Shown here one piece after another: positions 38,602-63,745 of a stretch of 64,000 nt of DNA. Within the stretch, counting starts at the first letter, position 1; the number at the start of each line of letters is the position of its first letter. Origin of the DNA: Sphingorhabdus sp. YGSMI21. Its GTDB lineage: Bacteria; Pseudomonadota; Alphaproteobacteria; Sphingomonadales; Sphingomonadaceae. The position numbers and the translations under genes were made by a program. Below the pieces are notes generated by a model. That model saw only the letters and a list, made by a program, of their open reading frames with translations, was not told where the DNA came from and searched no databases. The DNA is taken from contig NZ_CP022548.1 of the NCBI RefSeq assembly GCF_002776575.1, forward strand, positions 2,495,001-2,559,000. The letters run 5' to 3'.

Positions 38602-38623
38602 GCCCCTCCTTTTCAAAGGAGGG
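38602..38623. terminator. Perfect hairpin downstream of priA
   Basis: CCCCTCCTTT (38602-38611) pairs with AAAGGAGGGG (38614-38623) around a 2-base loop. It lies between the end of priA and the start of the protease gene and continues into a GGGGTTGGGGTGGTTG tract, a common proteobacterial intergenic repeat. It probably terminates the priA transcript. Confidence 0.55.
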
Positions 38624-38668
38624 GTTGGGGTGGTTGCGAGCGTAAGCGAGCCTGCGCGACATCAAGGA

Positions 38669-58193: not shown

Positions 58194-58200
58194 GTTAACC

Positions 58201-58285
58201 CGTCATGCCAGCGAAGGCTGGCACCCAACCCGCCTATGTGAGTCTCACAACCCCTGGTTTAGGCCCCAGCCTTCGCTGGGGTGAC
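58201..58285. repeat. 85-bp intergenic repeat, family B
   Basis: A unit beginning CGTCATGCCAGCGAAGGCTG and ending CCAGCCTTCGCTGGGGTGAC, with CCCGCCTATG in the middle. Near-identical copies are at 62125-62210 and 63660-63745. The ends pair (CCAGCGAAGGCTGG with CCAGCCTTCGCTGG), so the RNA would fold into a long stem. It lies between the converging CAP and rdgB genes. Confidence 0.85.
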
Positions 58286-58936: not shown

Positions 58937-59088
58937 CCTCTCCCATAGGGAGAGGCAAGTGAAACTTGCGAGCTTGCTCGCTAGTGGAACTCGGTGAGGG
59001 GCTGGAAACCTCGAAGGGATTAACCCCTCACCGACTGCGCCTAAGGCAATGAATTGCCAAGGCTTGTTGCCTCTCCCCATGGGAGAGG
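58937..59088. repeat. Long repeat element, family A, copy 1 (two inverted half-units)
   Basis: Outer hairpins CCTCTCCCATAGGGAGAGG (58937-58955) and CCTCTCCCCATGGGAGAGG (59070-59088) bracket two inverted half-units. The inner ends are TCGGTGAGGGG (58991-59001) and CCCCTCACCGA (59024-59034), leaving 22 bp between. Each half has an internal hairpin: GCGAGCTTGCTCGC on the left, GGCAATTCATTGCC (read on the minus strand) on the right. No gene is carried. Confidence 0.85.
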
Positions 59089-60092: not shown

Positions 60093-60252
60093 CCTCTCCC
60101 ATAGGGAGAGGCAAGCAAGACTTCCCCGGATGCAATCCGGGGTTGGTCGCGCTCGGTGAGGGGTTATGCCCTCTCGGCAATCCAAACCCCTCACCGACCT
60201 GCGCTAGTCATTAAAGATGCCAAGCTGCGGTTGCCTCTCCCTATGGGAGAGG
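60093..60252. repeat. Long repeat element, family A, copy 2
   Basis: Same plan as 58937-59088: outer hairpins at 60093-60111 and 60234-60252, inner ends TCGGTGAGGGG (60153-60163) and CCCCTCACCGA (60187-60197), 23 bp between. The left internal hairpin is CCCCGGATGCAATCCGGGG; the right one (read on the minus strand) is GGCATCTTTAATGAC, with one mismatch. No gene is carried. Confidence 0.85.
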
Positions 60253-60272
60253 GTGAGGATTGCGTGATTTAT

Positions 60273-60350
60273 GTGCTCCGCACTTGATGCGGAGCTCTGG
60301 CGGCTGGGAGCGCTATTCGCCGGACCAGCTCCGCATCAAGTGCGGAGCAC
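60273..60350. repeat. GTGCTCCGCACTTGATGCGG-type inverted repeat
   Basis: Units GTGCTCCGCACTTGATGCGG and CCGCATCAAGTGCGGAGCAC are inverted around about 38 bases. A close copy is at 54418-54493. It lies 54 bp upstream of hrcA, so it may separate or attenuate transcription there. Confidence 0.8.
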
Positions 60351-60404
60351 ACGACACTCAACTGCACGCTGGAAACATCGCTTTGGTTCACCTATCTATC
60401 ACCC

Positions 60405-62074: not shown

Positions 62075-62124
62075 GCTCTTTCGTCCGGATGGGTCGAGCC
62101 TTCGCAGAAGACCTGACCATATCC

Positions 62125-62210
62125 CGTCATGCCAGCGCAGGCTGGCATCCAGCCCGCCTATGCAAGTCTCGCCACCCTCGGTTGAGGCCCCAGCCTTCGC
62201 TGGGGTGACG
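62125..62210. repeat. Intergenic repeat, family B, copy 2
   Basis: Same unit as 58201-58285 with few substitutions (for example GCGCAGGCTGGCATCC for GCGAAGGCTGGCACCC). It lies 51 bp downstream of grpE and probably ends the hrcA-grpE transcript. Confidence 0.85.
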
Positions 62211-62363
62211 GTCGATTTAACGCACCTATTTAGACTCTGATAAAGCAGGCGGAATGACTTTTTCGGCTGAACATGCTATATTTCCATTTCGTTCCGTTGG
62301 CTGCCGCCAGCGTGATTTTCCTCTCCCGGAGGGAGAGGGCAACGAGACTTGGCAATTCATTGC

Positions 62364-62367
62364 CTAG
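62364..62367. repeat. Target-site copy CTAG, left
   Basis: CTAG at 62364-62367 and at 63201-63204 flank the IS. CTAG targets are typical of the IS427 group. The left copy also provides the stop codon of the transposase on the minus strand. Confidence 0.7.
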
Positions 62368-62806
62368 GTCGTGGACTCATAAAATCTTAGCCAGAGTCTG
62401 GTTGACGCGAGTGCGACGGTGGCGAGGAAGTTTCTGGCGAGCTTGTCGAAGCGGGTGGCACATCTTCGGAAGTGCTTGAGTTTACAGAAGTATCTTTCGA
62501 CCAGATTGCGCTGACGATATATGTTCGCGGCGACTGAGCGTTGTATCTTGCGATTGCGCTGGGTTGGGATATGGGCTGTGGCACCCATGGCCTCGACCTG
62601 TTCGACCAGGGCGCGGGCATCATAACCCCGGTCGGCGACGAGATGGCGTAGGCGTTTCAGGCTGGCGACCAGACCGGCGGCGGCCGCATGATCGGATATC
62701 TGGCCTTGCGACAGGGCGAGACGGATTGGCAAGCCCTCGGCATCGACCACGGCATGCAGCTTGGTACTCAGTCCCCCACGAGAGAGACCAATGGCGTGAT
62801 CCGGGC
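62364..62806 (-). CDS. IS transposase, second frame (DDE domain, C-terminal part)
   Basis: After the shift the protein continues PDHAIGLSRGGLSTKLHA and includes GQISDHAAAAGLVASLKRL, ADRGYDARALVE (second catalytic Asp) and the catalytic-Glu helix RNLVERYFCKLKHFRR. It has no start of its own in the right place; an internal frame from 62750 lacks the beginning. It is expressed by a -1 frameshift from the first frame and ends in TAG formed by the target duplication. Confidence 0.85.
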
Positions 62807-63200
62807 CCCCTTTTTACCACCGCTGGAATGCTGGTGAGCGCGAATGATGGAACTGTCGATAAATGCCATGGATTCTGGCGAACCTGCTGCCAAGGCATTG
62901 AATATATTAATCCAAACACCAGCCTTCGCCCATCGGTTGAAGCGATTGTAGACCGTCGTGTACGGGCCATAGCGTGCCGGAAGGTCCCGCCAGGGCGAGC
63001 CCGTGCGCAAAATGTAAAAAATACCGTTTAGTACCCGCCGGTCATCCACCCGCGCCACGCCGCGCGGCTTGTTGGGCAATAGCGGAGCGATAATCGACCA
63101 CTCCGCATCACTCAAATCAAATCGTGCCATGATACACCTCCTCTAAAGACAGTGAATCACATCTATTGCGCTATGGGAATCCCCTTTATGAGTACACAAC
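62368..63200 (-). mobile_element. IS5-family (IS427-type) insertion sequence
   Basis: The 833-bp element has 16-bp terminal inverted repeats, GTCGTGGACTCATAAA (62368-62383) and the complement of GTTGTGTACTCATAAA (63185-63200), with two mismatches. It is bounded by CTAG on each side and encodes a two-frame DDE transposase on the minus strand. Length, target and frameshift layout are all as expected for the IS427 group, so the element looks intact. Confidence 0.9.
62768..63130 (-). CDS. IS transposase, first frame
   Basis: The 120-residue product holds the DUF4096-type N-terminal domain (FDLSDAEWSIIAPLLPNK; GSPWRDLPARYGPYTTVYNR) and the first catalytic Asp (AFIDSSIIRAHQHSSGGKKG). The frame then ends 13 codons later. 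A run AAAAAGGGGG on the minus strand (62806-62815) is the likely slippage site; a -1 shift there joins it to the second frame. It follows AGGAGGTGTATC, a strong ribosome-binding site. Confidence 0.88.
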   Translation of the reverse strand: MARFDLSDAEWSIIAPLLPNKPRGVARVDDRRVLNGIFYILRTGSPWRDLPARYGPYTTVYNRFNRWAKAGVWINIFNALAAGSPESMAFIDSSIIRAHQHSSGGKKGARITPLVSLVGD

Positions 63201-63233
63201 CTAGTCGCAGTGGGTGAGGGGTTTAGACAGGCC

Positions 63234-63602
63234 ATGAAGAAGCGCCTGACTCCAGTCGCAAGAAAACTCCGAAGAAACAGAACCGATGCAGAAGCTTTGC
63301 TCTGGTCGCGCCTTCGCAATCGCCAGCTCGAAAATACGAAATTTCGGTTTCAGGCCCCCTTTGATGACTATATAGCTGACTTTCTATGTCATTCGGCCAG
63401 CCTCATAATTGAACTGGACGGGGGTCAGCATGTCGACAGCCCTGAAGACAAGAATCGCGATGCTGTCATGGAGATCGCGGGCTATCGGGTGATCCGATTC
63501 TGGAACAGCGAGGTGTTTGAGAACCTGGAGGGCGTCCTTGAGGAAATTCGGCTGGCAATACTGGAGGGCAAAGAAGATCAACCCCTCACCGAGCGCGACT
63601 AG
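63234..63602 (+). CDS. DUF559 endonuclease (Vsr-like PD-(D/E)XK fold)
   Basis: The ATG at 63234 gives 122 residues; a GTG at 63210 would start inside the inner repeat. The family pattern is complete: RKLRRNRTDAEALLWSRLRN, ADFLCHSASLIIELDGGQH with the catalytic Asp and E-L-D-G, and GYRVIRFWNSEVFENLEGVL. These proteins share the fold of the very-short-patch repair nuclease Vsr; their role is unknown. The gene lies exactly between the inner ends of the family A element, and its last codons (for P-L-T-E-R-D) are read from the right inner repeat. The full reading frame looks intact. Confidence 0.9.
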   Translation: MKKRLTPVARKLRRNRTDAEALLWSRLRNRQLENTKFRFQAPFDDYIADFLCHSASLIIELDGGQHVDSPEDKNRDAVMEIAGYRVIRFWNSEVFENLEGVLEEIRLAILEGKEDQPLTERD

Positions 63603-63659
63603 TTCGCTTCGCTCTCAAGTCTTGCTTGCCTCTCCCTCTGGGAGAGGATGAAATTATTC

Positions 63660-63745
63660 CGTCAGGCCGGCGCAGGCAGGCACCCAGTCCGCTTATGGGG
63701 ATCTCACCAACCTTGGATCAGACCCCGGCCTTCGCTGGGGTGACG
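63660..63745. repeat. Intergenic repeat, family B, copy 3
   Basis: More diverged copy of the 58201-58285 unit (CGTCAGGCCGGCGCAGGCAG start, CGGCCTTCGCTGGGGTGACG end). It overlaps the 3' end of the reading frame at 63718-64000. Confidence 0.8.

Follow-up and report, generated by a model that had tools for sequence, protein, structure and literature searches.

What is a nuclease gene doing precisely inside a small intergenic repeat? The question is raised by the 64,000-nt stretch of Sphingorhabdus sp. YGSMI21 DNA analysed here (the window), whose last 6 kb hold three elements of one plan, each built from two inverted half-units. The inner arms of copies 1 and 2, GGTGAGGGG and CCCCTCACC, are spaced by about 22 nt. 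In copy 3 the left inner arm (TGGGTGAGGGG, one mismatch to TCGGTGAGGGG) ends at 63221 and the right one (CCCCTCACCGA) begins at 63582, and between them lies a gene whose intact open reading frame (ORF; 63210-63602, likely ATG at 63234, stop at 63600-63602) matches PF04480 at E 2e-36 in a profile search. This is DUF559, entered in Pfam as a "protein of unknown function". Its last codons (QPLTERD) are encoded by the right half-unit itself. An earlier, sequence-only reading of the window had described the three elements, the spacing of about 22 bp and the complete gene ending in repeat-derived codons, and all of this is present where it was described; its anatomy of copy 3 was correct for the inverted halves around the gene but missed an IS5-family insertion sequence at 62368-63200 that splits the left half. 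That later arrival has terminal inverted repeats GTCGTGGACTCATAAA / TTTATGAGTACACAAC and two transposase ORFs on the minus strand (62768-63130 and 62364-62750), both matching NCBIfam transpos_IS5_3. We read copy 3 as the gene-carrying member of a repeat family with triplex-motif ends, and DUF559 as that family's cognate nuclease, with a probability of roughly 0.55.

The half-units follow a rule: a pyrimidine/purine hairpin is followed by an inward G-rich tail that mirrors the purine arm, giving the order pyrimidine arm, purine arm, third strand. G stands opposite G, and A or T opposite A, which is the purine-motif triplex code (arm to tail, GGGAGAGG to GGTGAGGG, GGGAGAAGG to GGATGAGGG and GGGAGGGG to GGGGTGGG). 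Among 313 hairpin units, in which the N artefact L181 is still counted, tail and arm match under the code with a mean of 0.909, compared with 0.807 for permuted pairs (z 28); 186 units are perfect, whereas the control rules yield 44 (exact mirror), 54 (A to A/C), 71 (direct repeat) and 34 (Watson-Crick pairing with the arm). When only the G positions fix the register, A or T fills 1372 of 1475 letters opposite A, overlapping sub-hairpins being counted more than once. The sequence-only reading had recognised the inverted half-unit plan but missed this code. At the level of sequence the half-units match the motifs that Holder et al. 2015 (PMC4666352) call intrastrand triplex motifs (TM, earlier PIT elements), and the covariation of arm and tail is comparative-genomic evidence that selection maintains the predicted triplex pairing.

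Holder et al. count 23 intergenic triplex motifs in E. coli MG1655, including five inverted pairs, each of one type A and one type B motif, and report from nuclear magnetic resonance (NMR) that a single strand of the E. coli motif forms a triplex in vitro (PMC4666352). Tail and arm might instead form a G-quadruplex, a reading that would leave the DUF559 coupling unchanged and is therefore compatible with ours. By our own uncounted reading many half-units also fit a quadruplex pattern, but a quadruplex requires neither the arm-tail register nor the A-to-A/T rule, and the structure that NMR showed was a triplex. As the sole reading a quadruplex fits less well than the triplex code, and we consider it very unlikely.

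A variant of the design, found in F1/F2-type half-units, places a stem-loop between arm and tail, and in the window such variants exceed the limits of the published search (loops of 1-6 nt; PMC4666352). The 73 half-units of this pattern, a few of them from other genera, carry 42 different stems in a largely conserved frame, and 55 of the 73 middle segments fold more than 2 standard deviations (sd) better than shuffles, the stem being the best per sequence. As we read it, the frame CTT-stem-TAG leaves T opposite T under the stem. This opposition, absent from families without the stem-loop, may be a clue to the chemistry that a Vsr-fold enzyme might perform.

Coupling between gene and repeat is seen throughout the genus. 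A search found DUF559 in 29 of 32 genomes, and the window's own genome has three such genes, each accompanied by inverted repeats from a family of its own. Of the 60 hits, broken genes among them, that have complete 250-nt flanks, 54 show an inverted flank match scoring at least 30, versus 14 of 2051 random positions at the same loci. Perfect inward half-units stand within 220 nt on any side of 46/61 genes and on both sides of 36/61; the corresponding figures for random positions are 4/222 and 0. On a tree of 59 proteins, built without the broken hits L039, L040 and L071, the family of the repeats tracks the DUF559 clade: 53 labelled rows require 7 family changes (the 6 of 59 rows with no recognised family left out), and 300 shuffles never gave fewer than 28. 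Clades A, F2, F4 and F5 each occupy two or three sites and keep their repeat family. At L050 and L051 the open frame of the DUF559 domain extends to 442 codons although a repeat directly follows the domain, possibly a read-through fusion with the next gene.

The bracket extends far beyond the sphingomonads. Among named loci, the best 80 matches of one scan of genome contigs from many taxa, the flank score identified inverted flanks at 55 of 77 usable loci versus 24 of 1971 random positions (L178 and L192, with a short flank, and the artefact L181 left out). Once L181 and loci with flanks below 120 nt were set aside, perfect inward half-units lay within 220 nt on any side of 65/77 loci and on both sides of 38/77; 12 of the 77 have none. 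At random positions 7/313 had any half-unit and none had both; for neighbouring ORFs outside the DUF559 zone the counts were 2/97 and 0/97, and 23/78 ORFs with a flank touching that zone had any. The two-sided loci include Proteobacteria, Gastranaerophilales (Cyanobacteria), Nitrospira, a Spirochaete, Omnitrophota and Binatia, and many of the proteins end in tails such as PSPSRGEG that look repeat-encoded. A sample of the phylum, in which 49 of 150 genomes had a DUF559 match, behaved alike: taking the best match in each of 29 genomes, inverted flanks scored at least 30 at 21/29 (control 95th percentile 29, 99th percentile 71, from short loci), and perfect inward half-units within 220 nt were present on any side of 26/29 and both sides of 12/29, versus any at 0/64 random positions. 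DUF559 genes are, almost certainly, specifically bracketed or bordered by triplex-code half-units.

Gene and motif also occur in the same genomes. With one generic motif pattern applied to the 150-genome sample, and DUF559-positive defined as a best E of at most 1e-10, at least five copies were found in 19 of 36 genomes with the gene and 6 of 114 without it (p ~1e-9, relatedness uncorrected), or 17/36 and 4/114 net of a reversed-pattern control, by which the 43 copies of genome G085 are mostly simple repeats. Equal abundance of the repeats in genomes without DUF559, which the sequence-only reading had named as a result that would count against it, is thus not what was found, although several gene-less genomes keep them. 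On one contig (G082:C10) two DUF559 matches lie within 2 kb of each other, possibly a local duplication.

These controls bear on the simplest account, that common intergenic hairpins or terminators happen to stand beside a small gene without any functional link. The motif is indeed widespread and intergenic, and many copies stand alone; but brackets are all but absent around random positions and neighbour genes, the repeat family changes with the DUF559 clade, and earlier tests, as cited in PMC4666352, detected no promoter or terminator activity. Chance or passive repeats are rejected by the random-position and neighbour-gene controls, and this account is hardly credible.

The enzyme itself points to a nuclease. 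The predicted structure of the window's DUF559 protein (predicted local distance difference test, pLDDT, 88) is matched best in Foldseek by NGO0050 of Neisseria gonorrhoeae (3hrl, E 2e-8), next by the homing endonuclease I-Bth0305I (3r3p, E 5.5e-4) and weakly by E. coli Vsr (1cw0, E 0.4); sequence profiles again rank NGO0050 and I-Bth0305I first. D49, E60, D62, H66, D72, R75 and R88 are invariant in an alignment of 28 proteins, the acidic residues and the histidine likely lying at the putative active site. Profile, modelled fold and conserved residues agree in placing DUF559 among the PD-(D/E)XK nucleases. A YcjD profile detected Vsr in 2005 (PMC1189080), and the Caulobacter DUF559 protein VsrA is reported to be SOS-induced and connected with DNA damage on loss of cytosine methylation (PMC12907096). 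In Legionella, segments with a transposase and DUF559 have been reported as hotspots of mutation and recombination.

Comparison of the same sites in relatives revealed what becomes of the elements. Downstream of grpE, where the DNA was read by eye in 15 of 28 matched genomes, the element of copy 3 is whole, with an intact gene, in G009 and G021, at the same place in G009 without the split seen in the window; in G010 its gene is frameshifted. G016 shows an in-place internal deletion that leaves the two half-units with the gene's first codons and last bases, whereas the 520 nt of downstream DNA read in G002, G006, G008, G019 and G022 contain no element. Compared with shuffled loops, those at the centre of nine B-family doublets agree better with the two inner ends of the gene-carrying element (summed score 60 versus -13, sd 7.6; L005 does not do so by itself, and the loops are mutually related), as is expected if a doublet is an element that has lost its gene, or the element a doublet that has gained one. 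These loops and the G016 deletion bear out the proposal of the sequence-only reading that miniature and gene-carrying copies are related as in REP-RAYT systems (repetitive extragenic palindromes and REP-associated tyrosine transposases). The relation and the comparison both hold and generalise far beyond the sphingomonads.

Bracketed DNA also turns around in place. Three of 10 genomes have the F6 DUF559 cassette the other way round (G000, G009 and G019 versus seven others); in G000 and G019 the outer flanks are collinear and the breakpoints lie in the outer repeats, and the gene tree suggests that there was more than one flip. Inverted cassettes (L073, L066, L068) and those in the other orientation (L064, L067 and others) lie between one and the same pair of neighbouring genes. 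Judged by eye, copy 1 is cleanly inserted when compared with G008, G016, G020 and G007, so that the comparison of strains with and without an element, a check proposed in the earlier reading, returned one clean insertion but no target duplication recognisable by eye at that single site. The DNA 3' of ruvB (L374-L403; the gene name is our own reading) differs between related species, which have there a doublet of the B or the A family, other repeats, a solitary remnant of a hairpin or nothing at all, and is a hotspot of repeat turnover.

Flips and internal deletions are also what one might see if DUF559 were a Vsr-like host nuclease for repair or genome maintenance that removes or resolves folded repeats, its gene staying near them as substrate and as its own regulatory or protective DNA. 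The Vsr-like fold, the vertical inheritance of DUF559 and the SOS induction of VsrA, with its tie to DNA damage after loss of cytosine methylation (PMC12907096), agree with such a role; yet genomes with DUF559 have more motifs, not fewer, the gene is often absent in relatives, and neither the bracket design nor a repeat supplying the gene's last codons fits it. We regard a repair function of this kind as quite unlikely.

The number of places at which the gene resides constrains a second alternative. Comparison of outer flanks sorts the 61 DUF559 genes of the genus into 15 groups at about 14 sites, and because so many genes occupy so few sites we reject free transposition of the gene-carrying unit for the genus: copies with the gene do not move at will. 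DUF559 could nevertheless be a homing-type selfish gene for which the repeats are target, not product, the enzyme cutting gene-less doublets at their centre and repair from an occupied copy, through half-unit homology, copying the gene in. The gene does sit at the centre of a doublet, among relatives of solved structure and known function the closest is the homing endonuclease I-Bth0305I, and clades A and G occur at the same site in different species. Against homing, the genes have stayed on their few sites though exact motif copies away from DUF559 genes are common in the genus, no spread into doublets was seen there, and a family-specific triplex design is not needed; doublet loops also resemble deletion remnants such as that of G016, though insertion of a gene into a doublet would leave the same ends. 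Homing is, on balance, unlikely. Around one gene (L015, L041 in G004 and relatives), clades A and G themselves occupy, in different species, adjacent sites or a shared one.

Our preferred reading, a nuclease-repeat partnership that would work like RAYT and REPIN (REP doublet) pairs with an unrelated Vsr/homing-like nuclease and triplex ends, suggests a mechanism. In each half-unit the G-rich tail, directly or past the variable stem-loop, would lie in the groove of the pyrimidine-purine hairpin as a third strand, and folding would happen when the DNA is single-stranded, at a fork or in a bubble. The nuclease would recognise the fold of its own family and nick or cut at its foot, after which repair or replication would copy, invert or delete the segment that two inverted half-units bracket; loss of the gene would leave a short doublet such as copies 1 and 2. 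Doublets would be seeded and lost at a low rate while the enzyme gene stays put, inherited as RAYT genes are. Such a process might join what was observed: the anatomy and the triplex code, the coupling of clade and family, inverted brackets across many phyla, the presence of gene and motif in the same genomes, flips in place and one internal deletion. We infer the binding, cutting and copying by DUF559 and the folding of the triplex in cells. That the enzyme acts on the half-units is probable; that it also spreads them we hold at even odds. The general form, in which DUF559 proteins would be structure-specific nucleases reading a family-specific triplex or its foot, and so copying, flipping and deleting DNA between two motifs, is a proposition that could fall either way.

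The same partnership may be present in the organism in which triplex motifs were described. In K-12, a DUF559 gene named ycjD has a one-mismatch code motif 167 nt beyond its 3' end and, at that end, a degenerate motif that supplies the last codons; in strain S1-SRB-02-B the terminal motif has one mismatch, points inward and overlaps the gene end. The ycjD region was found in 3362 of 5426 E. coli genomes (megablast, at least 80% covered). In 60 records spaced evenly along the ranking, motif places, a BLAST proxy and not a full motif count, had a median of 9 in the 39 with ycjD and 2 in the 21 without it, one place having been subtracted for 8 ycjD-positive records whose ycjD match carried no motif. 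A 2026 paper (PMC12817139) places ycjD in phylogroups A, B1 and C and reports an efflux operon in its place in others. The fabI-sapF interval of three records without ycjD (L369, L371, L372) contains a TetR regulator and resistance-nodulation-division (RND) efflux genes beside fabI. According to Holder et al., variation around triplex motifs exceeds that at controls, and mobility genes sought near the E. coli motifs were not found, the authors calling the mechanism unclear (PMC4666352). DUF559, ycjD and "endonuclease" do not occur in the main text of that paper, and we found no paper joining DUF559 with triplex or palindromic repeats in the Creative Commons-licensed literature of PubMed Central.

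Several observations weigh against a cognate, mobile partnership. The evidence for mobility of the repeat family is thin: among orthologous sites at grpE, rph and ruvB there is a single clean doublet insertion, the others being replacements, remnants or DNA not alignable by eye, and 400 kb compared between G017 and G029 contained no clean insertion of this kind, the gaps inspected holding other repeat families where they held a repeat and otherwise unique DNA. Gene-carrying copies hardly move, and part of the coupling of clade and family is due to whole loci inherited from a common ancestor. A minority of DUF559 genes lack such flanks: besides the 12 named loci lacking any perfect half-unit there is clade H (L033, L054), which has no flanking repeats of this kind and is possibly a domesticated branch. 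Orientation is biased, not strict, outward half-units occurring about a third to half as often as inward ones (56 inward and 19 outward upstream, 47 and 23 downstream, for the 77 named loci). Repeats also outlast their gene: F3 and F5 motifs persist in genomes without it, G000 having 5 F3 and 11 F5 exact matches and no F3 or F5 DUF559; three DUF559-less genomes in the phylum sample have 15, 22 and 39 motif copies, and 17 of the 36 with the gene have fewer than five. Strict dependence of repeats on the gene is rejected; by hand count, 6 of 9 genomes with a clade-A DUF559 and 4 of 23 without one have exact A-family motifs elsewhere than in the gene element. For E. coli, Holder et al. report that a stable triplex was not seen in vivo (PMC4666352). 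The arrangement there is one-sided, because no motif lies upstream of ycjD and the motifs are 3' only; motif counts are confounded by phylogroup, and two ycjD-negative records have 8 and 9 motif places. The gabT-gabP doublet belongs to a wholesale intergenic replacement, with no clean empty site and one record that has N bases there, and the wzc-wcaA doublet, matched over 80% in only 5 genomes, was not usable.

The features of the window are collected in Table 1. Two further repeat families stand near the elements. One, CCGTCATGCCAGCG...GGGGTGACGG, is intergenic and recurs at 58200-58285, 62120-62209 and 63655-63744, so forming direct repeats on either side of the grpE element; G019 has a single copy and no grpE element in the DNA read, and recombination between direct repeats may therefore have removed the element there. 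The other, at 60272-60351, consists of two perfectly inverted 25-nt repeats, TGTGCTCCGCACTTGATGCGGAGCT, 30 nt apart, and represents a further doublet-like family, which relatives carry at that site too.

Table 1. Elements, half-units and genes in the window (positions count from its first letter).
Feature	Position	Strand	Details
Copy 1, doublet	58937-59088		two inverted half-units
Copy 1, left half-unit	58937..59001	+	hairpin CCTCTCCC/GGGAGAGG, middle stem-loop, third-strand tail GGTGAGGGG
Copy 1, right half-unit, inverted	59024..59088	-	
Copy 2, doublet	60093-60252		two inverted half-units
Copy 2, left half-unit	60093..60163	+	
Copy 2, right half-unit, inverted	60187..60252	-	
Copy 3, gene-carrying element	62320-63647		DUF559 gene between halves
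Copy 3, left half-unit, outer part	62320..62367	+	up to insertion site CTAG
IS5-family insertion sequence	62368..63200	-	in copy 3 left half-unit; CTAG on both sides
Copy 3, left half-unit, inner part	63201..63221	+	CTAGTCGCAGT and tail GGGTGAGGGG
DUF559 (PF04480) nuclease gene	63234..63602	+	122 aa; inside copy 3
Copy 3, right half-unit, inverted	63582..63647	-	overlaps 3' end of DUF559 gene
Lone half-unit, another family	38603..38633	+	R arm GGAGGGG, tail GGGGTGG

The nearest known kind is REPIN-RAYT, in which palindromic half-units occur mostly as inverted doublets, the cognate enzyme gene has the same repeats at its flanks, pairing is family-specific, and the gene is low-copy and vertically inherited, as described in PMC8049555, PMC3733652 and PMC3116915. 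Likewise here, the non-autonomous copies are scattered, inverted intergenic doublets, with single half-units also occurring, and the DUF559 gene is flanked by its own repeat family, few in copy and vertically inherited. The enzyme, in contrast, is a PD-(D/E)XK nuclease and not an HUH Y1 tyrosine transposase, and the half-unit follows the triplex code, with GTAG/CTAC found within the unit or 8 nt either side in only 34 of 231 perfect inward half-units (12 of 126 among those with a short linker). Because enzyme class and end structure differ, the DUF559-repeat system is parallel to REPIN-RAYT and not a member of it. It resembles the motifs of Holder et al. (PMC4666352) in having a pyrimidine arm, a purine arm and a 3' reverse-Hoogsteen strand (class II), and in its intergenic inverted pairs tied to local genome instability; those motifs, however, are described in that paper without an enzyme partner.

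Miniature inverted-repeat transposable elements and their parent insertion sequences offer another likeness, the miniature copy retaining the ends of the gene-carrying one; unlike them, the unit contains no DDE transposase by profile search apart from the later IS5 insertion, and copy 1 has no recognisable target duplication (one site, by eye). Vsr acts on T:G mismatches in a fixed sequence, and it shares its fold family with DUF559, as does Caulobacter VsrA. I-Bth0305I is intron-borne, and we know of no triplex repeats associated with it. Its catalytic fold is related and its gene too lies in mobile DNA (3r3p, entry name "Mobile intron protein"). Each part is known singly, but both parts that define the nearest kind, an HUH enzyme and a GTAG-tagged REP, were looked for and neither characterises this system.

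Two orphans may explain each other here: DUF559, and a widespread, unexplained class of triplex repeats. If the nuclease reads the triplex, this would be a genetic element with ends set by triple-helix pairing, the first of which we know. In E. coli K-12 the link between DUF559 and the motif comes down to a single gene, ycjD, and a single 37-nt motif, and is open to direct test. A REPIN-RAYT parallel assembled from unrelated parts would show that such a lifestyle evolved more than once and, if our reading is true, would amount to a separate mobile repeat system, unrelated to transposases, RAYTs or introns and reaching from Proteobacteria to Cyanobacteria, that would account for the instability reported around triplex motifs.

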